DNA of 64,000 nucleotides, taken from Pseudomonas vanderleydeniana. Lineage in GTDB: Bacteria; Pseudomonadota; Gammaproteobacteria; Pseudomonadales; Pseudomonadaceae. Below, piece after piece: positions 42,940 through 60,923 of this stretch (position 1 is the first letter of the stretch; each line of letters starts with the position of its first letter). The notes beneath the pieces are model-generated. The model saw only the letters and a program-made list of their open reading frames with translations, ran no database searches and was not told where the DNA came from. A program made the translations under genes and the position numbers. The stretch covers positions 3,460,001 through 3,524,000 of the forward strand of contig NZ_CP077093.1 of NCBI RefSeq assembly GCF_014268755.2, written 5' to 3'.

Positions 42940-42950
42940 GGTCAGACCTT

Positions 42951-43712: not shown

Positions 43713-44482
43713 GGACGCCCCCGGTTGGCCTGCCAGCGAAACAGGCGTTGTTCAAGCTGGCGAAAGGAATAGTCGAGGGCAAAACCGATCACCCCGGTAA
43801 TGAGCACGCCGACCATCACCACATCGATGCGCAGCATTTGCCGGCTCATTTCGATCATCTGCCCCAAACCACTGTCGGCGGCCAGCAGCTCGGTCGCCAC
43901 CAACACCACCCAGGCACGGGTCAGTGCAATACGAAAGCCGGTGATGATCGAGGGGGCGGCGGCGGGCAGGGCAATTTCACGGACGAAAGTCGGCCAGCGC
44001 AGCCGGTAGACGTCGGCGACTTCGAAGTAGCTGCGTGGAATGGCCTTGATGCCCTCGCTGGCGGCCAGGGCCACTGGAAAGAAGGCAGTCTTGGCGACGA
44101 TGACGATCTTGAAGGTCTCATCAATACCGAACAGCAGCACGAACATCGGGATCAGCGCGATACTGGGTATCTGGCGCAGCGTATGGAACAGTGGGCCGCA
44201 ATAGGCCTGGACCCGTTTCGACAAGGCCATGACGATACCGAATGCCAGGCCGGCCAGGGCCCCAATGCCAAAACCCAGAGTCAGGCGCGACAGGCTGTCG
44301 TGCAGGTGTTCGAGCAGCTCGCCGCTGGCCAGCAGTTCCTCAAAACTTTGCAGGACTCGCGCCGGGGGAACCAGCAGGTTGCGTGGGAAGAAACCGGCGT
44401 CGGCGACCAGGGCCCAGAGGAGTAGCAGGGCCAGGGGCGAAATGAGCCAGGTCAGGGATTCGAGCAGGCGCTTGTGGGGCAT
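43709..44482 (-). CDS. ABC importer permease (SsuC/TauC type)
   Basis: The 257-residue permease is of the same subfamily as the next gene, with loop VADVYRLRWPTFVREIALPAAAPSIITGF. Having two different permeases next to one ATPase suggests a heterodimeric membrane part rather than the SsuC homodimer. It is the first gene of its run and lies downstream of a sigma-54 type promoter at 44519-44535. Confidence 0.9.
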   Translation of the reverse strand: MPHKRLLESLTWLISPLALLLLWALVADAGFFPRNLLVPPARVLQSFEELLASGELLEHLHDSLSRLTLGFGIGALAGLAFGIVMALSKRVQAYCGPLFHTLRQIPSIALIPMFVLLFGIDETFKIVIVAKTAFFPVALAASEGIKAIPRSYFEVADVYRLRWPTFVREIALPAAAPSIITGFRIALTRAWVVLVATELLAADSGLGQMIEMSRQMLRIDVVMVGVLITGVIGFALDYSFRQLEQRLFRWQANRGRP

Positions 44483-44518: not shown

Positions 44519-44535
44519 CGCAAGAGGTGTGCCAG
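44519..44535 (-). promoter_or_regulatory. Sigma-54 type promoter for the ABC importer
   Basis: On the minus strand the sequence reads CTGGCACACCTCTTGCG. It has the invariant GG and GC elements 10 bases apart and matches TGGCAC-N5-TTGC exactly. It lies 37 bases before the permease ATG. Confidence 0.75.
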
Positions 44536-44560
44536 TTGGTGGTGGGATGTCCGGGCGGGT

Positions 44561-44656
44561 GCTATCGCCAGCCAGCCGGCTCCCACAATGACCGCGTCGT
44601 TCACGGATTCATCATATGACACAGATCCCAGCAGGAGCTGGCTGGCTGGCGACAGC
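44561..44656. repeat. REP-like inverted pair
   Basis: CTATCGCCAGCCAGCCGGCT (from about 44552) and GAGCTGGCTGGCTGGCGACA (to about 44654) are inverted copies of the REP type seen again near 47303, 50008 and 53470. They lie between the ABC importer promoter and the palindrome at 44700. Confidence 0.65.
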
Positions 44657-44699
44657 ATTACCACGGGCACCCTGGATTGATGCCCTGGCAACACCCGAC

Positions 44700-44715
44700 T
44701 GCTGCTCCAGCAGCA
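44700..44715. promoter_or_regulatory. Palindromic enhancer candidate, copy A
   Basis: TGCTGCT-CC-AGCAGCA is a perfect palindrome apart from the 2-base centre. Here the symmetry extends to 11-bp arms (44696-44719). It lies about 187 bp upstream of the -12 element of the ABC importer promoter. The same 16-bp element occurs at 49929, 53521 and 58800. Confidence 0.7.
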
Positions 44716-44731
44716 GTCGATCAGCAATCCC

Positions 44732-47200
44732 CTAGAAGTTGTAGCTCAGGCTGGTGTAGTAGAACGCCCCCTGGGCCCCTTCGGGACTGGTGATCGAGTA
44801 CTTGGGGACGCCATAGAGTTGCGTGCCGCTGGCCTTGTCCGGATAACTGTCGAACAGGTTGATCGCGCCGACCGACACCTTGAGGGACTTGTTGAAGGTG
44901 TAAGACACGTCCAGGTCGGTGACCCACTGTGCACTGTAGGTCTGGTCCAGGGTCGGGTTGGTGGCGTTCAGGCTCTTCCATTCGCCATAGCGGCGCTGGG
45001 CGATGGTCACGCCCCAGTTGTCATACAGCCAGTTGGCGCTCAGGGTCAGCTTGGAATCCGGCGTCCCGTCCTCGATCAGGCCCTGGGTGGCGCGCCCGAT
45101 GATTTGCGAGCCGCTGATCCCGCCGACGTCGCGTAGCGCGGTGATGGTGGTGTTGTTCTTGCTGAAACCGCTGCTCAGGTTCAGCCGCCCCCATTGCTGC
45201 AGGTCCAGTTGGTAGTTGCCGGTCAGCTCGACGCCGTCGGTGCGGGTGTCGGCGATGTTGGTGTAGAACGCCGCACTCTGGATATTGGCGTAGGGCGTAC
45301 CAGCAAAGATCGGCGAGACAACCGAGGCGGGCAGCTGGTCGGAGAGGGTGATGCGATTGGAAATGTCGATCCGGTAGGCGTCCACCGTCACCGAGGCATT
45401 GGGCAGCGGGCGCCAGACCAGGCCCAGGGAGTAGTTTTTCGATTCTTCCGGTTTCAGCGCCTTGCCGCCGAGCAGTTGCGCCTCGGGGCTGTCGGCACGC
45501 AGTGTGCGCTGCTGGACCTCGACATAGTTGCCGCTGCCCGGTGGTTGCTCCACCACCTGGACGCTGAAGGATGACATGCCGCTCTGTACCAGCGAGGGCG
45601 CGCGATAGCCCGTGCTGGCGGTGGCCCGGGCGGCCAGTTCGGGGGTGAAGTCATAGCGCAGCGAGAGTTTGCCGTTGGTGGTATCCCCGAAGTCCGAGTA
45701 GTGCTCGGTGCGCACGGCCACGCCCGCCTGGAATTTCTCGGTGACCTGGCCCTCGATGTCGAAGTAGGCACCCAGCACCTTGCGATCCAGGGAGGCGGCG
45801 TCGACCTGGGTGATCCCGGAGTAGTAGCCCGGCAGGCGCCTGCCGGTAATCGGGTCGATCGTGTTGAAAAGAGGACCATTCTGCCAGCCGGCGGCTTCGC
45901 CGGCGGTCAACTCGTAGTTCTCCTTGCGCCAGGCCAGCCCGGCGGAGAGAGTCAACGGTTTGGCCAGCAGGTCGGTGGGGAAGTCACGGACCCAGTCCAG
46001 GGTGAGGTTGGTCTGGTCGGCTTCACGCTTGCCGGTGTAGATGTTGCTGGGGCTGTTGACGCCCCAGCTCGGGTTGATCGCGTTGCGATCGTCCGAGGTC
46101 AGGCTGTTGTCGCCGTGGTTGATTGCCAGGTCGAACTTGCCCAGGCGTTCATCTTCCCAGCGCAGGCCTCCGGTGACGGCATAGTCTTCCAGGGAGTAGC
46201 GAGTGACCGGCAGCCGGCCATCAGGGTAGCGCTGCAAGGCCACGCTGCCGTAATTGCTGCGCAGAGCCGTGGGCGGATCGAAGAAACCCTCGGAGTCGGT
46301 GTTCTTGTGTGAGTAGGTGGCAAAGCCATAGGCGGTCAGCCCCTGGCCAAGACCCATTTCACTGTTGACGATGAAGTTGTACTGGTCGGAAACCCCGTTG
46401 GTGCCCCAGTTCCAGGTGCGATAGCGGTTGTTCTGCTCGCGTGGGGTGTTGGTGCTGGTGTCGCCGGGGTAGAAGATCCTGTTGTCCGGGTTGGTGTTGC
46501 TGGCCGGGTCCTGGCTACCGGCATCGAAGCTCAGTGTCAGGAAGCCGTCGTTGGGCAGGGAAAAGCCCTTCCAGCCGCTGTACTTGCGTTGCAGGCCATC
46601 GCCCTTGTCATATCCGCCGAAGCGGTAACCGATGTTGCCGCCTTCGTCCTTTTCCTTGAGCACGATGTTGATCACTCCGGCGATGGCGTCGGAGCCGTAC
46701 TGGGCGGCGGCGCCATCACGGAGGATTTCCACGCGCTCGATGGCACTCAACGGGATCAGGCTGATATCGACTGCTGCCGCGCCACGGCCGTTGGCCAGGC
46801 TCTGGCGGGTGATGTTGGCGCTGGTATGGCGTCGCTTGCCATTGACCAGCACCAGGACCTGGTCGGTCGCCAGGCCGCGTAGCGATGCCCCCTGGGCAAT
46901 GGAGCCGGCAAATGCGCCCTGGGGAGATTGCGGCATGGTGAAGGAGGGCGACAGGGCGGTGAGGGCGCCTGAGAGGTCGCTGGCACCGGTCTCCTGCAGT
47001 TGCTTGCCGGAGAGGACGTCCACCGGTGCGGCACTCTCCAGCGCGGTGACGTCGCTGCGGCGGGTGCCGAGCACCACTACCGTGTCGAGCTGGTCCTTGT
47101 CGGCTGAGGGTTTGGAGGACGATTCGGCAGCGAAAGCGGGCACGGCAAGGCTGCCAATGACCAGCGCGACGGCGCCGGCCAACGGGTGACGATGGAACAT
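44732..47200 (-). CDS. TonB-dependent outer-membrane receptor
   Basis: The 822-residue receptor has a signal peptide (about 1-24, ending AFAAE) and a plug domain beginning DTVVVLGTRRSDVTAL. The plug carries the motif IERVEILRDGAAAQYGSDAIAGVINIVLK. A large beta barrel follows, ending in an aromatic C-terminus (YTSLSYNF). It should bring a scarce ligand across the outer membrane with TonB energy. Its place among sulfonate-type ABC genes suggests an organosulfur ligand, as known for SftP. No sigma-54 motif was found directly upstream, so it may be transcribed with the receptor gene before it. Confidence 0.92.
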   Translation of the reverse strand: MFHRHPLAGAVALVIGSLAVPAFAAESSSKPSADKDQLDTVVVLGTRRSDVTALESAAPVDVLSGKQLQETGASDLSGALTALSPSFTMPQSPQGAFAGSIAQGASLRGLATDQVLVLVNGKRRHTSANITRQSLANGRGAAAVDISLIPLSAIERVEILRDGAAAQYGSDAIAGVINIVLKEKDEGGNIGYRFGGYDKGDGLQRKYSGWKGFSLPNDGFLTLSFDAGSQDPASNTNPDNRIFYPGDTSTNTPREQNNRYRTWNWGTNGVSDQYNFIVNSEMGLGQGLTAYGFATYSHKNTDSEGFFDPPTALRSNYGSVALQRYPDGRLPVTRYSLEDYAVTGGLRWEDERLGKFDLAINHGDNSLTSDDRNAINPSWGVNSPSNIYTGKREADQTNLTLDWVRDFPTDLLAKPLTLSAGLAWRKENYELTAGEAAGWQNGPLFNTIDPITGRRLPGYYSGITQVDAASLDRKVLGAYFDIEGQVTEKFQAGVAVRTEHYSDFGDTTNGKLSLRYDFTPELAARATASTGYRAPSLVQSGMSSFSVQVVEQPPGSGNYVEVQQRTLRADSPEAQLLGGKALKPEESKNYSLGLVWRPLPNASVTVDAYRIDISNRITLSDQLPASVVSPIFAGTPYANIQSAAFYTNIADTRTDGVELTGNYQLDLQQWGRLNLSSGFSKNNTTITALRDVGGISGSQIIGRATQGLIEDGTPDSKLTLSANWLYDNWGVTIAQRRYGEWKSLNATNPTLDQTYSAQWVTDLDVSYTFNKSLKVSVGAINLFDSYPDKASGTQLYGVPKYSITSPEGAQGAFYYTSLSYNF

Positions 47201-47248
47201 GGGAAAATTCCTTTCAGCTGGAAAATGTTATTTGCCGACCCCGCTTTT

Positions 47249-47302
47249 GGACTGCCCCCCAAGGGTTGGATAAGTATCCAACTTTGTGGGCAGTCCTTTT
47301 TT
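47249..47302. promoter_or_regulatory. Nested cruciform upstream of the receptor gene
   Basis: An outer 9-bp stem GGACTGCCC ... GGGCAGTCC (47249-47257/47288-47296) encloses a second perfect 8-bp stem GTTGGATA-AG-TATCCAAC (47265-47282). TTTTTT follows on the plus strand. It lies 48 bp upstream of the receptor ATG, within its likely 5' leader. It reads as a terminator only for plus-strand transcripts. Confidence 0.6.
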
Positions 47303-47402
47303 GTGGCAGCCGGCTTGCTGGCGATAGCGGTACGACTGCCTCCACTGAAAGCGGTGGATGGCCGCCTTCGGCGGATCGACAGCAAGCCGGCTCTCACAGG
47401 GC
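47303..47402. repeat. REP inverted pair (REPIN-like)
   Basis: GTGGCAGCCGGCTTGCTGGC at the left end and GACAGCAAGCCGGCTCTCAC near 47381-47400 are inverted copies of one REP type. A smaller hairpin (GGCCGCCTTCGGCGG) lies between them. Confidence 0.7.
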
Positions 47403-47432
47403 AGCGCGGCGGGCGTGGGATGGTGTGTATCG

Positions 47433-49706
47433 TTAGAAGCGGCTGGTGACGCTCAAGCCGACGGTACGGGGATCGCCATAGGTGACGACGTACTGCCCGG
47501 CGGTACCGTTGGGCCGGCCATGGACCTGGTAGCGGCGGTCGGTGACGTTGTCGATGAAGCCGGTAACGCTGAGCTTTTCATCCGGGCTGTACCAGGTCAG
47601 CCGGGTGTTGGCCAGGGTGTAGTGCGGCTGGCTGAGCAGTTTGTCGGCGCTGCTCTGGCGGTCTGCCAGGAAGTACTCCTTGTCGCGGTAGCTGACATCA
47701 CCGCTGGCCACCAGCTTGCCGCCGATCGCCAGCGGGAAGGTGTAGTCGGCGCCCAGCGAGACCACATTGCGCGGCGAACGGACGAAGCTGTTGCCGCTGT
47801 AGTCGCCAGTGACTGCGCCGGTAGTGGGGTTGATGTTCTTGAAGTCGGTGTATTCGGTATCCAGGAACGAGACAGCGGCGCGCAGGTGCAGGTAATCGGT
47901 GGGCTGGCCCTCGAGCTCCAGTTCAGCACCCTTGACCTTGCCCTTGGCGCCGTTGGTCAGTGCGGTAGTGAGCACGCCGTTGTTGACGGTCAGCAGGTTG
48001 ACCTGGATATCCGAGTAGTCGTAGTAGAAAACGTTGGCGTTGGCCGTGAGCCGGTGGTTGAACCACTCGGACTTGAGGCCGAGTTCGTAGGCGTCGAGCT
48101 GTTCCGGATCGACCGTGGTCAGTTGCGACAGGCTCGTGGACAGCCCAGTGTTGAAACCACCGGAGCGGAAACCGTGGGCATAGCGCAAGAACACCCGGAC
48201 GTTGTCGTTGATCCGGTATTCGGGGGTCAGGTCGTAGGTCCAGGCTTCCCAGGTCTTGTCTTCCTGGCGATTGCCATTGGTAGCGGTGCCCGCCAGCGGG
48301 ATCAGCGGGCCGTTGGCCGTGGCGCGGGTCAATTGAGTCAGGTCGAGGTCGATGTCTTTCTTTTCCTGGGTCCAGCGCAGGCCGCCGGTCACGCTGAAGT
48401 TGTCGGTGAAGTCGTAGGTCAGGTTGCCGAACAGCGCGTAGCTGTCGGTCTTGTGGGTGTAATTGAGGTTGCGCACATCCGTGACACCGCCGGTCTGGTT
48501 CGAACCCGTGCCATTGGGCGTCGTGCCGGGTGTGATGATTCGTGAGCCGTTGCTGTCGAGGTCCTCGTGGAAGTAGTGGGCACCGGCCAGCCAGCGCAGT
48601 GTTTCCTGCTGCGGCGAGGCCAGGCGTATTTCCTGGGAGTACTGGCGGTAGGCATTGTCGCTGTAACTGGTGCCGTTCACCTCGTAGGGGGTGTAGTCGG
48701 CGTCGCTGGTGGAGCGACCGCGAATATAGTCGTAGGCGCTGATCGAGGTCAGGGTGTAGTCGCCCAGGTGCCAGTTGAGGGTCAGCGAAGTGCCGTCATG
48801 GTCGAGGCGGGAGTCGTCATCGACGTTCTGGTCGACATTGCGTCCGGACGGGCGCTGGTAACCGACGTTGTAGTAGCGGCCAATCGGCAACGTGCCATTG
48901 GCGCCGTCGCCCTTGTATTCGCGGCTGTGGATCTTCAGCAGGGCATCCAGGTCGGGGTTGAGCTTGGCCAGGAACTGCAAGCGAATGGCCTTCTTGTTCA
49001 CGTCGCCATAGGTCGAGTCGTCGAAGCGGTTGTTCTGGAAGCCGTCGCGCTCTTCGGAATAGAGCGAGACTCGTGCTGCCAGACGGTCCTCCACCAGGGC
49101 GCCGCCGATGGCGCCGGTCAGGATACGATCGTTCCTGCTGCCGATGCCGAGGGTGGCGAAACCGTCGGTGTCGAAGGTCGGCTTCTTCGAAATGATGTTT
49201 ACCGCACCGGCCGTGGTGTTCTTGCCGTACAGCGTGCCTTGCGGGCCACGCAGGACCTCGATGCGCTCCAGGTCGAACAGCGGGCCGCCGCCAGCGATCG
49301 GTGCATTGAGGTACACGTCATCGGCGTAGATACCTACCGGAAAGACCGTCGCCGCACCGGTATCGCCGGTACCCAGGCCGCGGATGTACCAACGCGGACG
49401 GGCATCGCCATCCGGGTTCTTGGCCGAGACGTTGGGAATGAAGGTGGTAATGTCGCGCAGGTTGCGCGCGCCATCGGCGATCAGGTTGCTACCCTGGACC
49501 GCCGACACGGCCACCGGAACCTCTTGCAGGGTTTCCTCGCGGTGTTGGGCAGTGACGGTCACGGCTTTCAGGACCGGCTCGCTGGAGGTATTGGCCGCTT
49601 CATTGTCGGTGTTTTCTGCCGCCAGCGAAACTTCGTTGAACGTGCCGCCGGCGAGGGCCAGTGTGAGCCATAGGCTTCGGCTGATTGGATTAAGTGTGTG
49701 CATCAA
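47433..49706 (-). CDS. TonB-dependent outer-membrane receptor
   Basis: The 757-residue receptor has a signal peptide ending near SLAAEN (about 30) and a plug domain with AVTVTAQHREETLQEVPVAVS. IEVLRGPQGTLYGKNTTAGAVNIISKKP follows, which is typical of broad-family receptors that include many catabolic or sulfur-linked ones. The barrel ends with Phe (LSVTSRF). A sigma-54 type promoter lies 37 bp upstream and the enhancer palindrome about 190 bp further. It probably shares a role with the receptor encoded downstream. Confidence 0.92.
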   Translation of the reverse strand: MMHTLNPISRSLWLTLALAGGTFNEVSLAAENTDNEAANTSSEPVLKAVTVTAQHREETLQEVPVAVSAVQGSNLIADGARNLRDITTFIPNVSAKNPDGDARPRWYIRGLGTGDTGAATVFPVGIYADDVYLNAPIAGGGPLFDLERIEVLRGPQGTLYGKNTTAGAVNIISKKPTFDTDGFATLGIGSRNDRILTGAIGGALVEDRLAARVSLYSEERDGFQNNRFDDSTYGDVNKKAIRLQFLAKLNPDLDALLKIHSREYKGDGANGTLPIGRYYNVGYQRPSGRNVDQNVDDDSRLDHDGTSLTLNWHLGDYTLTSISAYDYIRGRSTSDADYTPYEVNGTSYSDNAYRQYSQEIRLASPQQETLRWLAGAHYFHEDLDSNGSRIITPGTTPNGTGSNQTGGVTDVRNLNYTHKTDSYALFGNLTYDFTDNFSVTGGLRWTQEKKDIDLDLTQLTRATANGPLIPLAGTATNGNRQEDKTWEAWTYDLTPEYRINDNVRVFLRYAHGFRSGGFNTGLSTSLSQLTTVDPEQLDAYELGLKSEWFNHRLTANANVFYYDYSDIQVNLLTVNNGVLTTALTNGAKGKVKGAELELEGQPTDYLHLRAAVSFLDTEYTDFKNINPTTGAVTGDYSGNSFVRSPRNVVSLGADYTFPLAIGGKLVASGDVSYRDKEYFLADRQSSADKLLSQPHYTLANTRLTWYSPDEKLSVTGFIDNVTDRRYQVHGRPNGTAGQYVVTYGDPRTVGLSVTSRF

Positions 49707-49742
49707 GTCTCTCCCCCTTGAAAGTATTGCTGAAGGGGCTTG

Positions 49743-49759
49743 AGCAGGGAGCGTGCCAA
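49743..49759 (-). promoter_or_regulatory. Sigma-54 type promoter for the TonB receptor gene
   Basis: The minus strand reads TTGGCACGCTCCCTGCT: TGGCACG is exact, GG and GC are 10 bases apart, and the -12 box is CTGCT. It lies 37 bases before the ATG at 49706. Confidence 0.75.
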
Positions 49760-50076
49760 GAATATTGGCTGTAGGTTTTTTTGTTGTTTAGTGTCTCTAA
49801 TTACTTGAAAAACAAAGGATATATTTTATTTTTTAACGTTATGGAAAGTTATGTTTCGAGCAAATGCCAAGTGCTTTGAAAGCAACTGAAGTGAGTTGCC
49901 GGGGATTCAGCAGAAGTTGCTTGGTAGGTGCTGCTGCAGCAGCAGTGGCTGCGATGGTGAGTGTTGCTGGGCAAGCAGTTGCGCTTGGGGGAAGAGTGAG
50001 GCTTACATGGTTATCGCCAGTCAGCGGAGCATCGCTGCGCTGGCTGGCGATTACGCCCGAATGAACAACAGGGTTT
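49760..50076. other. Regulatory region upstream of the TonB receptor gene
   Basis: No gene is seen. An AT-rich stretch (49775-49860) stands out against the GC-rich surroundings and could bend DNA between enhancer and promoter. The palindrome at 49929 and a REP-like hairpin at about 50008-50053 (TTATCGCCAGTCAGCGGAGC facing CGCTGGCTGGCGATTA) follow. Confidence 0.5.
49929..49944. promoter_or_regulatory. Palindromic enhancer candidate, copy B
   Basis: TGCTGCT-GC-AGCAGCA is a fully self-complementary 16-mer. It lies about 190 bp upstream of the -12 element at 49744-49745. Confidence 0.7.
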
Positions 50077-51135
50077 TCAGACCGCTACCCGGGACGTCGA
50101 TCCGATCACTTTCTCCAGGACACGGAAGTCGATCCACTCGCGTACGTCGAAACGCCGCGGAATGAATGCCCAGCGATGCAGGAAATCGGTGAAGTCCTGC
50201 AGGGCCTCGATCGAGCGCGCATCAAGAGTCGTGCGCAGGCGTCGGTGCGCATCCTCGCCGTAGGCGGCCGATACCCAGTATTCGCTGGTATTCAACTCGC
50301 GGGCGAGAAAGCGTCGGGTTTCTTCCGGATTGGCCCAGGCCCATTGCTCGGTGCGCAGCACGGTATCGACGATCTTCACGCTGGCATCGAAGTGCTCCTC
50401 CAGCAGATGGGTATCCACGGTCAGGGTCCGTGGCGTGCCGTTGTTCGAGCGGATCAGCGGGTCCGGGTGCGAGCCGGTGTCCACCACCACATGCAGGCCG
50501 AATTCATTGGCCAGGTGCACGGCATGGGCACCCTTGAGGAAGATCGCATCGATGTCGCCACGCAGCAGACCGATCAGCTCGTTGTTGCGGCGGCTGTAGT
50601 GAATGACCCCGAGGCTGATCTGCGAGCCATGGACGTAGGCCTTGGGATGGTCGCTGTAGGTGCCACCATAGGGATAGTCCACCAGCTCGACATCACTGAC
50701 GCTCAACCCTTCGAGCTTGAGGGCGTTCTCGAGCCCGCGCAGGGCCTGGGCACGAGTGAAGTCGATCTGTACATTGGCCCATTTCGGCACGCCAAAGCGC
50801 CGGTTCTTCAGGTCGCGAACAGTTCTGACGCCGCTTTCCGCAGTGGTCAGGATCAGTTGCACCTCATCGGTCCACGACAGACCCAGCACCCGCGTCTGCA
50901 CGCCGCTGGAGTAGGCCCAGATGGCCGGGATGTTGCCGCCGTGGCGCACCGAGTTCTGCAGGTGATGATCGTAGTGCGCCTCGCGAACCTCCCTTTCGCT
51001 GGACTCGCGCAGGGACTGGATGTTAGTGCCCCAGGGCTGAAAAGCCTCGGCCAGGCGCCCGGATTGCACGGCGATGCCAAGCCCCGTGGGGACCGGGCTA
51101 TGGGTGTACCAGAGCGTATCGAGTGGTTTGCTCAT
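50077..51135 (-). CDS. DszB-like protein with Ser at the catalytic Cys position
   Basis: This 352-residue cytoplasmic-type protein (no signal peptide) has the periplasmic-binding-protein-like fold shared by SsuA/NMT1 proteins and the desulfinase DszB. The N-terminus LDTLWYTHSPVPTG aligns with the DszB active-site segment, in which Cys27 is the nucleophile; here the position is Ser13. His54 and Arg64 keep the spacing (10 residues) of DszB His60 and Arg70 (HYDHHLQNSVRHGGNIP). It may be an inactive binder or may use other chemistry. It starts 35 bases after the very similar Cys-bearing paralogue. The ATG at 51135 follows GAAGG. Confidence 0.75.
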   Translation of the reverse strand: MSKPLDTLWYTHSPVPTGLGIAVQSGRLAEAFQPWGTNIQSLRESSEREVREAHYDHHLQNSVRHGGNIPAIWAYSSGVQTRVLGLSWTDEVQLILTTAESGVRTVRDLKNRRFGVPKWANVQIDFTRAQALRGLENALKLEGLSVSDVELVDYPYGGTYSDHPKAYVHGSQISLGVIHYSRRNNELIGLLRGDIDAIFLKGAHAVHLANEFGLHVVVDTGSHPDPLIRSNNGTPRTLTVDTHLLEEHFDASVKIVDTVLRTEQWAWANPEETRRFLARELNTSEYWVSAAYGEDAHRRLRTTLDARSIEALQDFTDFLHRWAFIPRRFDVREWIDFRVLEKVIGSTSRVAV

Positions 51136-51170
51136 AAAAGCCTTCAGTTCGAATCCATGAAGCCTGATGG

Positions 51171-52223
51171 TCAACCTGCCAGCGCGGCAGGGGTTTGCAG
51201 CAGCGACTCCAGTGGCCGGTGGTCGATCCAGTCACGTACGTCGAAGCTCTTGGGAATGAAGCGCCAGCGATGCAGGAAACCGGTGAAGTCCTGCAGGGCC
51301 GCGATAGCCTGCTCATCCAGCCCGGTACGCAGGCGTAGGTGGGCATCGTCGCCGTAGGCGGCATTGACCCAGTATTCGCTGCTGTTGGTTTCCCTGGCGA
51401 GGTAGCGACGGGTGTCTTCCGGATGGGTATGGGCCCAGCGCTCGGCGCGCAGCACCGAGTCGAGAATGCCCCGGGCGACGTCGAAATGCTGTTCCAGCAG
51501 GTTCAGGTCCACGGCCAGGGTGCGCGGAGTGCCGTTGTTGCTGCGAATCAGGGGTTCAGGGTGGGCGCCGGTGTCGATCACCGTGTGCAGGCCGAATTCA
51601 TGGGCATGACGGGCAGCGCTGGCGCCCTTGAGGAAAATCGCATCGACTTCGCCACGCAGCAGACCCAGCAGTTCCAGGTTGCGGCCCTCGCTCTGCCGGC
51701 CATTGACCGGTGTACCGGCAACCGTAAGCACCTGTGACTCGCTGAAGGTGCCACCATAGGTGTAGTTGACCACCTGCACGTCGCCGACCTGCAGGCCCTC
51801 GAGCTTGAGGGCGTTCTCCAGGCCACGCAGGGCCTGGGCACGGGTGAAGTCGATCTGCACACTGGCCCAGTCCGGCAGGCCGAATGTGCGGCCCTTGAGA
51901 TCCTTGACGGTCTTGATGCCGCTGTCCGGGCGGGTCAGGATCAACTGCACCTCGTCGGCCCAGGACAGGCCGATCACCCGGGTTTCGCGACCCTGGGCCC
52001 TGGCCCAGATGGCCGGGATGTTACCGCCATGGCGTACCGAGTTGCGCAGGGTGTGGTCGAAGTGCGATTCGCGCACGGCCTTGTCGCTGGACTCGCGCAG
52101 GGACTGCACTTCGGTGCCGAGGGCGCCGACGGTCTCCTGTAGCCAGCCCTTCTGTACGGCAATGCCGAGTCCGGTCGGGACCGGGCAGCGGGTGTACCAG
52201 AGCGTGTCGAGAGGTTGAGGCAT
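51171..52223 (-). CDS. DszB-like desulfinase-family protein
   Basis: The 350-residue protein has no signal peptide. It is a close paralogue of the gene that follows it and keeps Cys13 in LDTLWYTRCPVPTG, His54 and Arg64 in HFDHTLRNSVRHGGNIP. These match Cys27, His60 and Arg70 of DszB, the enzyme that releases sulfite from 2'-hydroxybiphenyl-2-sulfinate. Automatic annotation would call it an ABC substrate-binding protein, but it lacks export signals and sits 19 bases after an SsuD-like monooxygenase gene. A sulfinate or related compound is the inferred substrate. Confidence 0.78.
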   Translation of the reverse strand: MPQPLDTLWYTRCPVPTGLGIAVQKGWLQETVGALGTEVQSLRESSDKAVRESHFDHTLRNSVRHGGNIPAIWARAQGRETRVIGLSWADEVQLILTRPDSGIKTVKDLKGRTFGLPDWASVQIDFTRAQALRGLENALKLEGLQVGDVQVVNYTYGGTFSESQVLTVAGTPVNGRQSEGRNLELLGLLRGEVDAIFLKGASAARHAHEFGLHTVIDTGAHPEPLIRSNNGTPRTLAVDLNLLEQHFDVARGILDSVLRAERWAHTHPEDTRRYLARETNSSEYWVNAAYGDDAHLRLRTGLDEQAIAALQDFTGFLHRWRFIPKSFDVRDWIDHRPLESLLQTPAALAG

Positions 52224-52242
52224 GTTCTTGGCTCCGCAGCGC

Positions 52243-53406
52243 TCAGGCGCTGGCTTTCAAGTGAGGGGCGTCGACCGTGACGGCAGGGCGTTGGTGCACC
52301 AGCGGCAGGACTTCCTGGCCGATGCGCAGGGCTTCCTCCAGATGCGGGTTGCCGGCGAGGATGAAGGTCGAGAAACCAGCATCACGGTACTCGGCCAGGC
52401 GCTCGGCGATGTTCTGGTGGCTACCGACCAGTCCGACGGTGGGGCCGGGCTTGGCCTTGGCGAAACCGGCCCACAGGTTGGGGCCGATGATCAGGTCTTC
52501 GAAACGGTCGATGTTCTGGTGGTAGGCGGTCTGGCGTGCGCCGCCGACCGAGTCCGAACCACTGGTGAAACCCTTGGCCAGGGCGCTGCCGCGACCTTCG
52601 AGTTTGTCGAACTGGCGACGCAGGTCGGCCCAGGCCTGTTCCTCGGTTTCCCGGGCGAACAGATCGACGCGCAGGCCAAAGCGCACGCTGCGGCCCTGCT
52701 TGTCCGCCAGTTCGCGTACCCGTTCGATGTGCGGCTTGAGCTTGTCGATCGGCTCGGCCCAGTTCAGGTAGACATCGGCGTGTCGGGCCGCGACGTCGAG
52801 GGCTGCGTCGGAGAACCCGGAAAAGTACACGCCTGGCTTGCGTTCATCGTGCAGGCCGGGGGGCAGGGAACCGTTCTCCAGTTGATAGATATCACCGTCG
52901 TAGGAGAAGTGCTCGTTGTCCCACAGGCCCTGGATGATGTCGAGGAATTCGCCGGTGCGCCTGTAGCGCAGGTCGTGTTCGAGAAAGTCGCCGTGGGCGC
53001 GCTGGCTGGCCGGATTACCGCCGGTGATGATGTTCCAGTCCAGGCGGCCGCGACTGAGGTTCTGCAGGATGGCTGCCTGCTGCGCCGCATAGGCTGGCAG
53101 GGTCCAGGTGGCCTGGAAGGCGATCAGGAAACGGATGCGACGGGTTTCCCGGGCCAGCGCGGCGGCGGCGATCCATGGCTCGGGGCCGGTGGGCAACAGG
53201 GCGCCTTCGAAACCCGCCAGTTCGGCGGCCTTGGCTACCTGGGCGATGTAGTCGATGTAGGTGAAGTCGTCAGGCTCGCCATTGGGCAGGCGGCCAGGGG
53301 CGATATGGCCTGGACGATGATGGGCGCTGCCGCGGTTGTGCTTGTCGGTGCTCAACTGCGGGCCGTCGGTGCCCAGTGGCAGGCGCCAGAAAAATTCAGT
53401 GCTCAT
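52243..53406 (-). CDS. SsuD-like FMNH2-dependent monooxygenase
   Basis: The 387-residue LLM-class flavin monooxygenase has TEFFWRLPLGTDG, then FLIAFQATWTLPAYAAQQAA and LSRGRLDWNIITGGNPASQRAHGDF, the phosphate and flavin site pattern of SsuD-type enzymes. VGLVGSHQNIAERLAEY comes near the end. SsuD removes sulfite from alkanesulfonates using FMNH2 from a partner reductase, which is not encoded in the window. It is first in the operon with the two DszB-like genes. The ATG at 53406 follows GGGAG. Confidence 0.87.
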   Translation of the reverse strand: MSTEFFWRLPLGTDGPQLSTDKHNRGSAHHRPGHIAPGRLPNGEPDDFTYIDYIAQVAKAAELAGFEGALLPTGPEPWIAAAALARETRRIRFLIAFQATWTLPAYAAQQAAILQNLSRGRLDWNIITGGNPASQRAHGDFLEHDLRYRRTGEFLDIIQGLWDNEHFSYDGDIYQLENGSLPPGLHDERKPGVYFSGFSDAALDVAARHADVYLNWAEPIDKLKPHIERVRELADKQGRSVRFGLRVDLFARETEEQAWADLRRQFDKLEGRGSALAKGFTSGSDSVGGARQTAYHQNIDRFEDLIIGPNLWAGFAKAKPGPTVGLVGSHQNIAERLAEYRDAGFSTFILAGNPHLEEALRIGQEVLPLVHQRPAVTVDAPHLKASA

Positions 53407-53448
53407 GGGTGCTCCCGATTCAAGTGCACGGAGGGTTGGGTACCGATC

Positions 53449-53465
53449 TGCAACGGCCATGCCAC
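53449..53465 (-). promoter_or_regulatory. Sigma-54 type promoter for the SsuD-like/DszB-like operon
   Basis: The minus strand reads GTGGCATGGCCGTTGCA: TGGCA-T-G with TTGCA 4 bases on, and GG and GC 10 bases apart. It lies 43 bases before the ATG at 53406. Confidence 0.75.
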
Positions 53466-53469
53466 GTCC

Positions 53470-53497
53470 CTTGTGGGAGCCGGCCTGCTGGCGATGG
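53470..53497. repeat. Single REP copy
   Basis: CTTGTGGGAGCCGGCCTGCT followed by GGCGATGG matches the REP type near 47303. It lies between the sigma-54 promoter and the palindrome. Confidence 0.6.
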
Positions 53498-53520
53498 CGA
53501 GTGCCTGGGGGGGAGGAGGG

Positions 53521-53536
53521 TGCTGCTGTAGCAGCA
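53521..53536. promoter_or_regulatory. Palindromic enhancer candidate, copy C
   Basis: TGCTGCT-GT-AGCAGCA lies about 78 bp upstream of the -12 element at 53450-53451. A second imperfect palindrome, AGCAATGGTTGCT, lies just beyond it. Confidence 0.7.
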
Positions 53537-53608
53537 CCCCTTCAGCAATGGTTGCTCTGCACGCAACAAGTCCCCAGGGGCGGCGCTGTCTCTGTGAGAC
53601 CCTCTGTT

Positions 53609-55477
53609 TCAGACCGTTGCCATCGCGTTGCTTTCATCCATGTTCATGCCGCTTTCAGCGTTGTGCAGATAGGTCTCGTACAACGTCGCATAGGCTCCAC
53701 CCTGGGCAATCAGCTGGCTGTGAGGGCCTTGCTCGACCAGCCGCCCATGACGGATCACGGCAATACGATCGGCATCGCGGATGGTTGCCAGGCGGTGGGC
53801 GATGATGATCGCCGTGCGGCCTTCGCACAGGCGCCGGAATGCCTGCTGGATACGCCGTTCGGTATGGATGTCGACTGCCGACGTCGCCTCGTCCAGCACC
53901 AGCACCGCGGGATCGGCCAGGTAGGCCCGTACCAGGCACACCAACTGCCGCTGACCATGGCTCAGGTGACTGCCCAGCGGCCCGACCTCGGTCTGGTACT
54001 GATGTGGCAGGCGCTCCAGTACCTCGTCCGCCCCCAGCTCCCGGGCTGCGGCGATCAATACCGCATCGTTGGCTTCCGGCGCCGCCAGGCGCAGGTTGTC
54101 CAGGATACTGCCGCTGAACAGTACGTTGTCCTGTAACACCACCCCAACGTTGCGCCGCAACGTCTGTTGCGCCAGTTCGCGCACATCGATGCCGTCGAGC
54201 CGCACGCTACCGCCCTGCACGTCGTAGAAACGCGTCAGTAACTGCACCAGGGTGCTTTTGCCGTGGCCGGACGGTCCGACGATCGCCAGGACCTCGCCGG
54301 CCGGGATACGCAGGTCCAGGTTGTTGATCACCGGCGATGCCCCGGCGGGGTCGTAGGCGAACCGTACCTGTTCGAAATCCACCTCGCCTCGTGCTCGGTG
54401 CAGCGGACGGGGTTCAGCCGGGTCATTGACCTGGGGGTGGGTGTCGAGCAGCAGAAATATCCGCTGTGCCGAAGCCGAGCCGGTGGCGTAGCGCTCGAAC
54501 AGCTCCGAGAGTTCCTGCAAGGGGCCGAGAAACAGGAACACGTAGAACAGGCTTTCGGCGACCTGGCCGACACTCACGGTCGACTCGGCCAGTCCGTACG
54601 CGCCAACCAGCAACAGCGCGGCCATGCCTGCGGTGCTGAGCAGGGCGGTGAACGGCGCGAACCAACTGGCGCGCAAACTGCCACGAATCAACGCCTGGTT
54701 GAAGTCGACCAGCAGTTGGCGATAGCGTCGCCGGTTGCTTTCCTCGCGGGCGCACTGCTGCAACATGCGCACGCCGCTGACGCTTTCGACCAGGTGGGCA
54801 GTGAAGCGACTGCGATTTTCCGCGACCTTGGCCCAGTTGCGCTGGGAGATGCGTTTGAAACTCCAGGTCGCCAGGACCAGCAGCGGCACGGTGGCCGCCA
54901 GGCTGAGAAAGAATCGCGGATCGATGTACCACAGCATGATCGAAGCGAGGGTACAGCGCAGCAGTGCGCCCAGCAGTTCCGGCGGTCCCTGGATCAGCAG
55001 CGGCTCGAGGGCATCGACATCGCGGTCGGCGCGGGAAATGATCCGACCGGCCTTGGTCCGGTCGAAGTAGCCGACACTCAGCGCCTGGACGTGGGCAAAC
55101 ACCCGTACCCGCAGGTCATTGAGTACGCGGATCGCCGCGCCGCCGGCGATGAATTGCGAGATCCCGGCGAGCAGGAAGCGTCCCAGCCAGCTGGCCGCCA
55201 GGCCGAGTCCGAGGTAAAGCACCAGTTGTTCGTCCAACAGCCAGTGATCGGCGTCGCGGACCAGGCCGTGATCAAGCAGTTCACGGACGAACCAGGGCCG
55301 CAGGAACACGGTGAATACCAGCAGCAGCTCGATGCCGATGACCCCGAGGATCGCCGTGCGGATCGGCCGCAGCAGTGGCAACAGGCGGCCGAACATGCTG
55401 CGATCGAGGGCTTTTCTGGCAAGCATCTCCTCGATCTCGATATCGCTCAGGGCTTTGCCCGCGGTTGGATTAGCCAT
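53609..55477 (-). CDS. ABC exporter half-transporter with LSHGQ signature
   Basis: The 622-residue type IV (MsbA-like) half-transporter has six membrane segments in residues 40-325 and an ATPase domain with Walker A GPSGHGKST (401-409). The signature is LSHGQ (505-509) instead of LSGGQ. Walker B is VLVLDE with the catalytic Glu530, and H-loop His561. It overlaps the partner gene by 8 bases. Combined with the partner it gives one complete and one degenerate ATP site, the pattern of heterodimeric exporters such as TM287/288. The exported compound is unknown. Confidence 0.88.
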   Translation of the reverse strand: MANPTAGKALSDIEIEEMLARKALDRSMFGRLLPLLRPIRTAILGVIGIELLLVFTVFLRPWFVRELLDHGLVRDADHWLLDEQLVLYLGLGLAASWLGRFLLAGISQFIAGGAAIRVLNDLRVRVFAHVQALSVGYFDRTKAGRIISRADRDVDALEPLLIQGPPELLGALLRCTLASIMLWYIDPRFFLSLAATVPLLVLATWSFKRISQRNWAKVAENRSRFTAHLVESVSGVRMLQQCAREESNRRRYRQLLVDFNQALIRGSLRASWFAPFTALLSTAGMAALLLVGAYGLAESTVSVGQVAESLFYVFLFLGPLQELSELFERYATGSASAQRIFLLLDTHPQVNDPAEPRPLHRARGEVDFEQVRFAYDPAGASPVINNLDLRIPAGEVLAIVGPSGHGKSTLVQLLTRFYDVQGGSVRLDGIDVRELAQQTLRRNVGVVLQDNVLFSGSILDNLRLAAPEANDAVLIAAARELGADEVLERLPHQYQTEVGPLGSHLSHGQRQLVCLVRAYLADPAVLVLDEATSAVDIHTERRIQQAFRRLCEGRTAIIIAHRLATIRDADRIAVIRHGRLVEQGPHSQLIAQGGAYATLYETYLHNAESGMNMDESNAMATV

Positions 55478-57251
55478 GGTCGATCCCCAGCAGGTCGCGG
55501 TAGTGTGGGTTGTGCTCGAGCAGTTCGCTGTGCGTGCCGCTGGCGCAGATCCGGCCGCCGTCGAGCAGCAGCACCCGGTCGGCCAGCAGGAGGGTGGAGA
55601 GTCTGCTGGAAATCAGCAGCACGCTGATGGGGCGGGCCTGATCGCCGCGCAGCCTGCGGATGTTGTCCAGCACCCGGCGTTCGGTCTGGGCGTCCAGCGC
55701 GCTGGTGGCGTCGTCCAGGCAGAGAATGTCGGGGGTGCCGAGCAGGGCGCGGGCCAGGCTCAGGCGCTGGCGCTGGCCTCCGGACAGGGTTACGCCGCGA
55801 TCGCCCAGAGGTGTCGCCAGGCCCTGGGGCAAACGCTCCAGCACGTCCTCGGCGGCGGCCAGGCGCAGGCCTTCACGTAGTTGCTCGTCGCTGGCGTCCG
55901 GCGCACCAAGGCGCAGGTTGGCAGCCAGGGTGTCTGAAAACAGGAAGCTCTCCTGCGGCACCACATGCACTCGCCGCCGCAGCTCGGCCAGGTCCAGCTG
56001 GCGGATGTCCTGCCAACCACTGTGGTCGTTACCCAGCAGCAGACGGCCGCTGCTCACATCGCCCAGGCGTGGCAGCAGGCTGGCCAGCAGGCTCTTGCCG
56101 GTACCGGTGGCACCGACCAGGGCGACCACTTCCCCCGGCTGGAGGGTCAAGGAACAGTCATGAAGGATGTCCCGTCCGCCGCCAGGGGCACTGACACTGA
56201 CCTGCTCCAGCTTCAGTCCCACGGGTGTTTCGGGCAGTCGTGCGCTGCCACTGCGAATGGCTGTTGGCTCATCCAGCAGTTGCCAGATCCGTTCGGCACT
56301 GGAGCGGGCGTCGGCGAAGGTCTGCATGACCCGGCCAATACCCTCGATGCGGAACACCAGGGTGGTGGCGATCAGCAGCGAGGTCACCAATTCGCCGATA
56401 CCCAGGCGCCCGGCGGCGACCTGGTGAGCACCATAGACCAGAACCCAGACATGGCCGAGCGCAACCACTGCCTGTGGCAACGGAATGCGCGAGCTGGAAT
56501 AGGCCAGGGCCTGGCGGGCCAGTTCGGCGAATACCGCCACCTGCTCGGAGAAACGACGGATGCGCCGGTGTTCGAGCGCGAACGACTTGATCACCCGGAC
56601 GCCGCCAATGCCTTCGCTGAGGTCCTGGTTGACCCGATCGTAGGCGGCGCCGACGGCACGGTCCAGGCTGACCAGGCGCTCGGTCTGCAGCACGAAGATC
56701 CACAGGCCAAAGGCGGTCAGCAGCAACGGTACCAGTCCCAGCAACGGGTCGTACCAGCTCAGCAGACCGACCGCCGCCAGCACCACCAGCGGTGTTTCCA
56801 CCACCTGGCGCCAGAAACTGATCAGCGCATCACGCACCTTGTCGGCATCACGGGTGGTGCGGGTGATCATTTCACCCATGCCGTGCTGCCAGTGATAGCC
56901 CAGGTGCAGGCGCTGCACCTGTTGCAGGATCCGTTCGCGCAAGCGTGTCAGCAGCTCCTGGCTCAGGACCAGAGACAGTACCCCGGCGGCATATTGCAAG
57001 GCACCACGCAGCACGGCCACGGCGAGCATCAGTCCGAACCAGTACCAGCCAAGACTGGCATCCAGGCTGCCATCGTCGTGGCGCAGTACCGCACGGCCGG
57101 CACTGACGTCGTTGACCGCGTGGCCGATCAGCCACTGCTGCCAGACCAGGCCCAGGTTGACGCTGACGAACAACGCAGCCACCAGCGCGAAACGCCAGGG
57201 CATCTCGCGATAGATCGCCAGGCTGCGGAGCAGGGGGTGTTTTTCGATCAT
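55470..57251 (-). CDS. ABC exporter half-transporter with degenerate catalytic site
   Basis: The 593-residue half-transporter has six membrane segments in residues 20-305, Walker A GATGTGKS (380-387) and canonical signature LSGGQ (489-493). Walker B is LCLDD, so the catalytic Glu is Asp514, and the H-loop reads ISSRL with Ser549 for His. These losses complement those of the partner, so the two must act as a heterodimer. The ATG at 57251 is taken; an upstream GTG at 57281 would add ten residues. It follows the SfnB/DszC-like gene on the same strand. Confidence 0.88.
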   Translation of the reverse strand: MIEKHPLLRSLAIYREMPWRFALVAALFVSVNLGLVWQQWLIGHAVNDVSAGRAVLRHDDGSLDASLGWYWFGLMLAVAVLRGALQYAAGVLSLVLSQELLTRLRERILQQVQRLHLGYHWQHGMGEMITRTTRDADKVRDALISFWRQVVETPLVVLAAVGLLSWYDPLLGLVPLLLTAFGLWIFVLQTERLVSLDRAVGAAYDRVNQDLSEGIGGVRVIKSFALEHRRIRRFSEQVAVFAELARQALAYSSSRIPLPQAVVALGHVWVLVYGAHQVAAGRLGIGELVTSLLIATTLVFRIEGIGRVMQTFADARSSAERIWQLLDEPTAIRSGSARLPETPVGLKLEQVSVSAPGGGRDILHDCSLTLQPGEVVALVGATGTGKSLLASLLPRLGDVSSGRLLLGNDHSGWQDIRQLDLAELRRRVHVVPQESFLFSDTLAANLRLGAPDASDEQLREGLRLAAAEDVLERLPQGLATPLGDRGVTLSGGQRQRLSLARALLGTPDILCLDDATSALDAQTERRVLDNIRRLRGDQARPISVLLISSRLSTLLLADRVLLLDGGRICASGTHSELLEHNPHYRDLLGIDHG

Positions 57252-57280
57252 GAATGGCTCGACAAGACAATTGCAGGTCA

Positions 57281-57332
57281 CCCACTACGTCCTGTAGGAG
57301 CCAGCAAGCCGGTTCCTACAGGACGTAGTGGG
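57281..57332. repeat. Long perfect inverted repeat
   Basis: CCCACTACGTCCTGTAGGA (57281-57299) and its exact complement TCCTACAGGACGTAGTGGG (57314-57332) form a 19-bp stem with a 14-base loop that contains REP-like AGCAAGCCGG. It lies in the gap between the SfnB/DszC-like gene and the exporter genes. Confidence 0.75.
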
Positions 57333-57347
57333 TGGGGCAGTGGGGAT

Positions 57348-58607
57348 TCAGCGGGTGGTGGCGCCCTGTTTTTCCTTCGCGTTGAGGATGGCGGTGTACT
57401 CGCCCGGGTCGACGCCATTGAGGTAGTAGTTGCCGACGTGGTGCAGTCGCCAGCGAATCGGGTCGTGGGTGGTATGCACCCGCGCGTTGCGCCAGAAACG
57501 GTCCAGATTCCACTTGCTCAGGGAGGCGCTGGCACCCAGCAGCGAGAAGATGTCGCTGGAGATTTTCAGCGAGGCGCTGTCGGAATGTGCCCGAGCGGTG
57601 GCCACCGAGAGGATCAGTTCGTCCTGCAATTCCTTGTTTTCCGGGTCCTGTTCATGTTGATCGAATACCCGTGCGGCATCGCGCAGCAGCGATTCGGCGG
57701 CGCGCAGGGCGACGGCGTACTCGCCGATCTGCTTGATGATGTGCGGTTCCTCGCTGGCGTGTTCGACGCCGCTCTCCACCCAGGCGCGAGCGTTGTGCTT
57801 TAGATAGTCCACCGCTGCGGCCAGGGCGCCAGCGGCGATACCGGTGTCGATGGCCGCATGCAGGATCTGCGGGAAGGTCAGGCCGGTGCGTTTCATCGGC
57901 CCCTTGCGCCGGGACACGAAGCGCTCGTCGAGTTCGATGTTGTCGAAGATCACCGTGCCGCTCACCGAGTTCTTCTGGCCGAACGCTTCCCAGTCATCGA
58001 CCAGCGTCAGGCCCGGGGTGTCGCGATGCAGCAGCACACCGGCACCCCCATCGTCGCTGGCGGCAGTCAGGGAGATCCATTCGGCCAGGTACGAGCCGGT
58101 GGAGTAGAACTTGCTGCCATTGAGCACCAGCGTGCCGTCCTCGCGGCGATCGACGCGGGTCTTCAAGGCGAACTTGTTCTTGCCGCCGACTTCCGCCAGG
58201 GCATTGCCCAGGCGCTTGCCGGCCAGTACATCGGCGAACACGCGGTCGCGTACATCGTCGGGGTAGCCCGTCACTCCACGCAGCATCACGTTGTGGATCT
58301 GCAGCAACTGGCCGACGCCACCGTCGGCCACTGAAATCAGGCGTACGGTTTCGACAATGGTTTGCACCGAGGCTCCCAGGCCACCCTGGGCCTTGGGCAC
58401 GCCGATGGCGGTAATGCCGCTGCTCGACAGCAATTGCGCCTGGCGCCGTGGCAACTGGCCATTTTGCCGGCTGTCGGCGGCGATCTTGGCGATTTCCCCG
58501 GCTATCTCCCGGGCGGCCTCGATGGCCTCGGCCTCACTGCGCAGCAGGCGCACCGGTGAGGACTCCTGCAGCGACAGGGTGGTGGGATGACGTTCGAGCG
58601 TACTCAT
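57348..58607 (-). CDS. SfnB/DszC-like acyl-CoA-dehydrogenase-fold monooxygenase
   Basis: The 419-residue protein has the acyl-CoA dehydrogenase fold: helical N-domain with GITAIGVPKAQGGLGASVQT, middle domain with LNGSKFYSTGSYLAEWISL, and helical C-domain with LLGASASLSKWNLDRFWRNARVHTTHDPI. The last motif and the missing catalytic Glu region are typical of the SfnB / DszC / flavin-monooxygenase group, not of true dehydrogenases. Such enzymes oxidise sulfur compounds with reduced flavin. A sigma-54 type promoter lies about 100 bp upstream. The ATG at 58607 follows AGAGG. Confidence 0.85.
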   Translation of the reverse strand: MSTLERHPTTLSLQESSPVRLLRSEAEAIEAAREIAGEIAKIAADSRQNGQLPRRQAQLLSSSGITAIGVPKAQGGLGASVQTIVETVRLISVADGGVGQLLQIHNVMLRGVTGYPDDVRDRVFADVLAGKRLGNALAEVGGKNKFALKTRVDRREDGTLVLNGSKFYSTGSYLAEWISLTAASDDGGAGVLLHRDTPGLTLVDDWEAFGQKNSVSGTVIFDNIELDERFVSRRKGPMKRTGLTFPQILHAAIDTGIAAGALAAAVDYLKHNARAWVESGVEHASEEPHIIKQIGEYAVALRAAESLLRDAARVFDQHEQDPENKELQDELILSVATARAHSDSASLKISSDIFSLLGASASLSKWNLDRFWRNARVHTTHDPIRWRLHHVGNYYLNGVDPGEYTAILNAKEKQGATTR

Positions 58608-58706
58608 GTTTGACCTCTGGCGTTTCACTGGATGAGTCCGCCTTGCCCCTGTGTGTTCTGCGCTCCCACAGGTCACAAGGCAAGGCAGTGGCATTGCCGG
58701 GCCTTG

Positions 58707-58723
58707 AGCAAGTTCTGCGCCAG
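58707..58723 (-). promoter_or_regulatory. Sigma-54 type promoter for the SfnB/DszC-like gene
   Basis: The minus strand reads CTGGCGCAGAACTTGCT: TGGC-G-C with TTGCT, and GG and GC 10 bases apart. One mismatch in the -24 box makes it the weakest of the five. Confidence 0.6.
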
Positions 58724-58799
58724 GGACGCGAAGCGAGGCTGAAAGCCCTGTCGGGCCAGGGCTCCAGCCTCGGGAAAGGGGTTCTCCAGGAGGGCGGCT

Positions 58800-58815
58800 G
58801 CTGCTGGAGCAGCAA
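58800..58815. promoter_or_regulatory. Palindromic enhancer candidate, copy D
   Basis: TGCTGCT-GG-AGCAGCA lies about 99 bp from the -12 element of the minus promoter and about 146 bp from that of the plus promoter. Confidence 0.7.
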
Positions 58816-58938
58816 TGACGCAAGGCGACTGCTCAGCCAGCAGCAGTCCCTGTGCAATGCTGCTTCGCCATCAGCAATTGATCGCCAGCGGTTTTCAGTG
58901 GATGCCCTGCAGCCCTTTGAAATAGAGGCTTTCAGCTC

Positions 58939-58955
58939 TTGGCACGGGCGCTGCA
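58939..58955 (+). promoter_or_regulatory. Sigma-54 type promoter for the plus-strand organosulfur operon
   Basis: The sequence reads TTGGCACGGGCGCTGCA: TGGCACG exact, GG and GC 10 bases apart, -12 box CTGCA. It lies 69 bases before the ATG at 59025. Confidence 0.75.
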
Positions 58956-60895: not shown

Positions 60896-60923
60896 CCACT
60901 GTGATTATTCAAGGAACATGAGC

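Follow-up and report, generated by a model that had tools for sequence, protein, structure and literature searches.

A predicted SfnR-type, sigma-54-dependent regulon for organosulfur scavenging in Pseudomonas vanderleydeniana

Introduction

SfnR of Pseudomonas is a sigma-54 activator of dimethyl-sulfone use, and P. aeruginosa carries two such proteins, SfnR1 and SfnR2. Sigma-54 promoters depend on an activator of this class, and the SfnR-type activator of P. putida is induced by sulfate starvation through CysB. In the literature on SfnR and its site we found no paper that gives the palindrome TGCTGCT-N2-AGCAGCA as an SfnR site; it may nonetheless be in print.

Here we analyze a 64-kb stretch of the P. 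vanderleydeniana genome (the window; positions 3460001-3524000 of the single 7,026,924-base contig), for which an original prediction had paired copies of this palindrome with sigma-54-type promoters and proposed that an SfnR-type activator reads them. The proposal is supported, as a prediction, with the amendment that the candidate reader belongs to a separate clade and that its sites are often a strong and a weak copy together. The palindrome is highly likely to serve as upstream enhancer (operator) for an activator that we call SfnR-A, which would switch on organosulfur units via sigma-54, and the predicted regulon for sulfur scavenging is well supported. New beyond the first reading are the activator gene, a sister clade whose linked motif differs by one base, phased copies of the site, co-occurrence within the genus, and the Dsz-like content of the locus.

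Results

Distribution of the palindrome

The window holds four exact copies of TGCTGCT-N2-AGCAGCA, at the positions originally given except for a shift of one base in the fourth (58799 instead of 58800), and none elsewhere, as had been claimed:

44700-44715, no strand: palindrome 1, upstream of an SsuC-like permease operon
49929-49944, no strand: palindrome 2, with a weaker core copy at 33 bp
53521-53536, no strand: palindrome 3, with a weaker core copy at 32 bp
58799-58814, no strand: palindrome 4, between divergent genes, with weaker core copies at 31 and 62 bp

In 100 dinucleotide-preserving shuffles of the window the exact palindrome was never recovered (mean 0.00, largest 0), and matches with up to three mismatches numbered 26 in the window versus a shuffle mean of 4.98. 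From our reading of the open reading frames all four copies are intergenic, and each has sigma-54-type promoters within 200 bp, as originally described.

A genome-wide search, which the original prediction had suggested, located five exact copies in 7.03 Mb (3504700, 3509929, 3513521, 3518799 and 3535586), all within 31 kb of one another. Copies with one mismatch occur in 31 further places, and the motif read backwards, used as a control, matches 12 places with at most one mismatch. When a promoter match of at least 13 bits was sought on the proper side, no more than 300 bp away, all five exact copies had one, compared to 1 of the 31 one-mismatch copies. The fifth copy lies 11.6 kb beyond the window end, between a binding-protein gene and the SfnR-A gene, so that two of the five copies (four and five) are placed between divergent genes. 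By eye, this binding-protein gene resembles one for sulfonate binding.

The degenerate core TGYTGC-N4-GCARCA is found in 20 places in the genome versus 6 for its control, and three of these sites besides the five have a promoter match of at least 15 bits (L192, L248 and L250). By eye, a binding protein of sulfonate type appears to be encoded downstream of L192, and one of sugar type downstream of L250. A one-mismatch copy at genome position 2838256 (L134), with a 14.5-bit match, was set aside, its neighbour genes not being sulfur-looking by eye.

Sigma-54-type promoters

Promoters were scored with a sigma-54 matrix whose weights were entered by hand, and the bit scores given here rest on these weights. 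The five promoter positions of the original prediction were recovered to within one base:

44519-44534, minus strand: sigma-54-type promoter TGGCACACCTCTTGCG, 15.2 bits, toward the gene at 43709-44482
49743-49758, minus strand: sigma-54-type promoter TGGCACGCTCCCTGCT, 17.6 bits, toward a TonB-dependent receptor gene
53449-53464, minus strand: sigma-54-type promoter TGGCATGGCCGTTGCA, 16.9 bits
58707-58722, minus strand: sigma-54-type promoter TGGCGCAGAACTTGCT, 14.6 bits, toward an SfnB/DszC-like gene
58940-58955, plus strand: sigma-54-type promoter TGGCACGGGCGCTGCA, 17.7 bits, toward a DszB-like gene

With this hand-entered matrix, six sites in the 64 kb reach at least 14 bits, namely these five and one at 11404, which was rejected as a promoter because, as we read the open reading frames, it is antisense inside a gene. 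The fifth palindrome copy has a promoter match of 16.3 bits toward the binding-protein gene, and 132 bp separate the centre of the palindrome from the -12 box. All six promoters carry -24/-12 boxes of the form GG-N10-GC and are predicted to depend on sigma-54. Of the centre-to--12 distances first proposed, 187, 192 and 78 bp hold, while 99 and 146 bp were recomputed by hand as 98 and 147 bp. For the SfnR-A gene itself, no sigma-54-type match of 7 bits or more was seen on its own strand in the stretch read.

Genes predicted to be under control

The genes downstream of the window promoters are as follows:

43709-44482, minus strand: ABC permease, best match SsuC (158.8 bits versus a cut-off of 347)
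42951-43712, after the SsuC-like permease: second permease, named from the reading frame
42148-42999, after the second permease: ATPase, named from the reading frame
47433-49703, minus strand: TonB-dependent receptor, downstream of the promoter at 49743-49758
44732-47200, following 47433-49703: second TonB receptor gene
52243-53406, minus strand: luciferase-like monooxygenase, best match alkanesulfonate monooxygenase (294 bits versus a cut-off of 518)
51171-52223, minus strand: DszB-like protein with the CPVP cysteine present (DszB, 2de2, E 1.5e-10)
50077-51138, minus strand: DszB-like protein with serine in place of the CPVP cysteine (best match 2de3, E 3.9e-7)
57348-58607, minus strand: SfnB/DszC-like flavin monooxygenase (SfnB model 389.5 bits versus a cut-off of 430.9; DszC E 2.4e-49)
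55470-57281 and 53609-55477, after the SfnB/DszC-like gene: two ABC-transporter-like genes, named by reading only
59025-60080, plus strand: DszB-like protein with the CPVP cysteine present (DszB, 2de2, E 1.8e-14)
60096-60842, plus strand: aldolase/epimerase-like gene, a weak match (E 3e-7, far under the cut-off)
60915-62111, plus strand: second luciferase-like monooxygenase, SsuD-like (266 bits, under the cut-off)
After 60915-62111, running out of the window: transporter-like operon, named by reading only

None of the ten proteins scanned reached its curated NCBIfam cut-off, the SfnB/DszC-like protein coming closest. With regard to a DszA-type monooxygenase, both luciferase-like enzymes match the SsuD model best, and the NtaA/DmoA model weakly (94 and 69 bits, respectively). 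The chain 2de3, best match of the protein encoded at 50077-51138, likewise has serine at the cysteine position. That all five promoters lead into organosulfur genes was too strong a statement, since one leads into a TonB-dependent receptor, which is not a recognised organosulfur gene; the genes nevertheless look suited to drawing sulfur from organic compounds, their predicted substrates.

The activator SfnR-A and its paralogue

As originally stated, no activator gene was seen in the window. A PF00158 scan of the whole genome placed the nearest full-length match 11.7 kb past the window end, in a gene adjoining the fifth palindrome copy (3535721-3536785) that encodes a 355-residue SfnR-like sigma-54 activator, SfnR-A. 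The match (239 bits, 3535784-3536281) begins at about residue 22, leaving the protein without an N-terminal regulatory domain, and the GAFTGA loop is present in the translation. A candidate C-terminal helix-turn-helix of Fis type, ISRNIVRARLEKIG, was read by eye, and the precomputed Pfam annotation of the protein lists no PF02954. An NCBI record with 93% identity to SfnR-A (P0012) already carries the name SfnR. SfnR-A is the likely reader of the palindrome.

A second SfnR-like gene, SfnR-B, with 61-64% identity to SfnR-A, is present in 12 of the 14 genomes examined. In P. vanderleydeniana, SfnR-B (62% identity) adjoins an sfnG match at 5125296, whereas SfnR-A at 3535721 does not. As msu groups with sfnR (PMC8234197), SfnR-B is taken as the positional equivalent of classical SfnR, an equation made by gene position and not by comparison with the classical SfnR sequence.

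The palindrome TGTTGC-N4-GCAACA lies approximately 3 kb upstream of SfnR-B in three other genomes (G006, G010 and G012); two of these sites were read, and both have a promoter match, one of them leading to a reading frame that by eye resembles MsuD. The same motif precedes the sfnG promoter match by 100-115 bp at 5 of 10 sfnG loci, with one mismatch at a sixth, and is absent from the sfnG locus of P. vanderleydeniana. Between the motifs linked to A and B, a single base is changed symmetrically in each half-site (TGCTGC versus TGTTGC). Two genomes that have A and no B match carry exact TGTTGC sites without a promoter match (L179 and L181).

A tree was calculated from 27 of 81 SfnR-A rows, 13 SfnR-B rows and 7 other activators of P. 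vanderleydeniana, leaving out L030, L024 and L043. A and B fall each on one side of a branch with support of 100/99, and A and B together are supported at 97/82, with a long-branch warning, which argues for SfnR-A being a clade sister to the sfnG/msu-linked SfnR-like protein. The recognition helix reads ISRNIVRARL in A and LSRNVTRTRL in most B rows, with LSRNIVRARL in L221. Of the three rows in the basal polytomy of the A clade (L122, L127 and L128), two have TGTTGC upstream, as do the later branches L072 and L093. At several A loci, TGTTGC or mixed sites precede the activator gene and the helix is unchanged; separate specificities of A and B are therefore put forward as a hypothesis only.

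Phased second copies

Second copies of the core, with up to three mismatches of 12, were searched around 66 of 84 sites that were kept after removal of similar ones. Of 86 secondary matches within 100 bp, 37 lie 31-33 bp away, versus approximately 3 if evenly spread; this expectation was calculated by hand, and many of the 66 sites represent one promoter in different species. A second copy is also present at three different promoters of the window, at offsets of 33, 32 and 31 bp, while the first palindrome has one at offset 22, and for the fifth copy none reaches the same threshold within 100 bp. Spacings of two or three helical turns would fit binding of the activator as two dimers on one face of the DNA.

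Conservation and co-occurrence

We collected the best 80 of 218 relatives of the SfnR-A gene, a set of loci chosen by the activator and mutually related. Among perfect palindromes of two 7-base arms with gaps of 0-6, TGCTGCT-N2-AGCAGCA is the commonest in these loci, with 42 occurrences at 38 of the 80; the runner-up, at 15 occurrences, is this core again in a shifted register, and the best unrelated palindromes reach 14 and 13. In most cases TGCTGCT-N2-AGCAGCA precedes the start of the activator gene by 114-137 bp. Of the 77 sites with at most one mismatch, 46 are accompanied on the proper side by a promoter match, compared to 244 of 8000 random positions; among the exact sites the figure is 26 of 42, and the other 31 of the 77 have no 13-bit match. 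In five species the region upstream of the TonB receptor gene retains the palindrome and the -24/-12 boxes, with a spacer that has diverged in both sequence and length.

In 13 named genomes and that of P. vanderleydeniana we counted 30 exact copies, 23 of which share a contig with the SfnR-A gene and are no more than 35 kb from it. Six of the other seven were read: L155 and L164 have a promoter and a target gene of the same kind, and L150, L154, L158 and L160 are inside reading frames without a promoter match. For one exact copy next to an activator gene, L159, no match reaches 12 bits.

Finally, of 59 sampled genomes, 8 have the activator (E 1e-160 or better) and 9 have exact copies. A match of at least 12 bits is associated with 11 of 13 exact copies in the activator genomes (10 at 13 bits), P. 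vanderleydeniana itself contributing 5 of the 11, versus none of 4 in the 51 genomes without it when one match that overlaps its palindrome is left aside; these numbers are small. Three of the eight activator genomes (G040, G045 and G067) have no exact copy.

Discussion

In the mechanism that we propose, SfnR-A would bind the strong palindrome and often also a weaker copy spaced about three helical turns from it, assemble there, and by DNA looping reach the sigma-54 polymerase at -24/-12 boxes 78-192 bp distant. This would turn on six transcription units, through which organic sulfur compounds would be taken up and desulfurised. Those predicted to run leftward comprise the SsuC-like permease operon, the TonB receptor, the SsuD-like monooxygenase with two DszB-like proteins, and the SfnB/DszC-like protein with two ABC-like ones; a rightward unit would encode a DszB-like protein, the weakly aldolase-like one, the second SsuD-like monooxygenase and the transporter-like operon. 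As almost no sequence precedes the AAA+ domain, the activity of SfnR-A is presumably set by its own level under sulfate starvation, perhaps through CysB.

It is unlikely, in our view, that the palindrome is read by another protein, such as SfnR-B or one of LysR or TetR type, with SfnR-A present at the locus by descent only. The wide occurrence of SfnR-B, the difference of one base per half-site in its linked site, and the TGTTGC or mixed sites at some A loci despite an unchanged helix could be accommodated by such a reader; however, sigma-54 promoters require an activator of the class of SfnR-A, and in the 51 sampled genomes lacking SfnR-A none of the 4 exact copies is paired with a promoter. 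That the palindromes act as RNA hairpins (terminators) is very improbable. Each could form a hairpin and three sit behind gene ends, but no terminator-like site was called at the four window palindromes, copies four and five separate divergent genes, and positions in relatives are fixed relative to gene starts. Chance matches aided by CTG-type repeats deserve even less credence: copy two does resemble a CTG repeat and other genomes have lone exact copies inside reading frames, yet the shuffles, the clustering with promoters and the conservation in relatives all speak against them.

Returning to SfnR-A as the reader, a more specific scenario can be offered tentatively, and we regard it as rather less probable than not. 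SfnR-A and SfnR-B would be sister activators whose operators were split by one base, TGTTGC having given way to TGCTGC in the operator of SfnR-A once the gene had been duplicated. SfnR-A would then be a private switch, insulated from SfnR-B by this one base, for a 4S-like pathway of SfnB/DszC-like and luciferase-like monooxygenases, DszB-like desulfinases and TonB/ABC uptake, and TGTTGC in L072 and L093 would represent reversals or tolerance.

An organosulfur regulon could thus be predicted from sequence alone, a starvation switch and its targets being legible because identical palindromes, promoters and a probable reader gene beside the fifth copy occur together. A widespread SfnR paralogue gains a likely DNA target, and duplicated activators that may split their operators by one base pair offer a clean test case. 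That a single predicted starvation switch would govern both DszB-like and DszC-like proteins in Pseudomonas is also of relevance to soil sulfur cycling and biodesulfurisation.

Like SfnR, SfnR-A is a sigma-54 activator with little before its AAA+ domain, its predicted targets are organosulfur genes with -24/-12 promoters, and SfnB-like and SfnG-like genes are among them. It differs from the sfnG-linked SfnR-like gene of the same genome in its sister clade, its linked palindrome and its recognition helix, and, unlike classical SfnR, which is linked to msu and sfnG, its gene is not beside sfnG. As in the 4S (Dsz) pathway of Rhodococcus, DszB-like and DszC-like proteins are brought together, here in one predicted regulon, but the monooxygenases here resemble SsuD/SfnG more than the NtaA/DmoA model, the genes are scattered over several units, and one DszB-like protein has lost its cysteine. 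With the Ssu/Msu systems of sulfonate use the locus shares SsuA/SsuC-like transporter parts and SsuD-like monooxygenases, all under curated cut-offs, whereas here they are joined with TonB receptors, SfnB-like and DszB-like genes and TGCTGCT-N2-AGCAGCA.

Core palindrome sites and a third activator

At a site of the core palindrome TGYTGC-N4-GCARCA (L192, G000:C1:2706660, TGTTGCTCCAGCAACA), a sigma-54-type match (17.3 bits, hand-entered matrix weights) lies 215 bp away and faces a gene whose product, judged by eye, resembles a sulfonate-type binding protein; L192 is a possible target of the activator paralogue SfnR-B. The core palindrome also accompanies sigma-54-type matches at two loci whose adjoining genes, judged by eye, are not sulfur-like in appearance:

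G000:C1:2833795, L248, 17.1 bits
G000:C1:3164244, L250, 15.7 bits

A further SfnR-like activator carries a differing helix, ITRNAMRTLL:

G000:C1:2661897-2662922, third SfnR-like activator gene (L035, L222), 52-54% identical

sfnG and the DszB-like protein

The genome's own sfnG (L176, G000:C1:5125296-5126054; open frame of 284 aa) may be shortened, since its match covers only profile positions 98-350, whereas nine relatives match from position 1.

Window 50077-51138, minus strand, DszB-like protein gene, serine replacing the catalytic-position cysteine (CPVP)

The top match of this protein is 2de3, a solved DszB chain that also has serine there.
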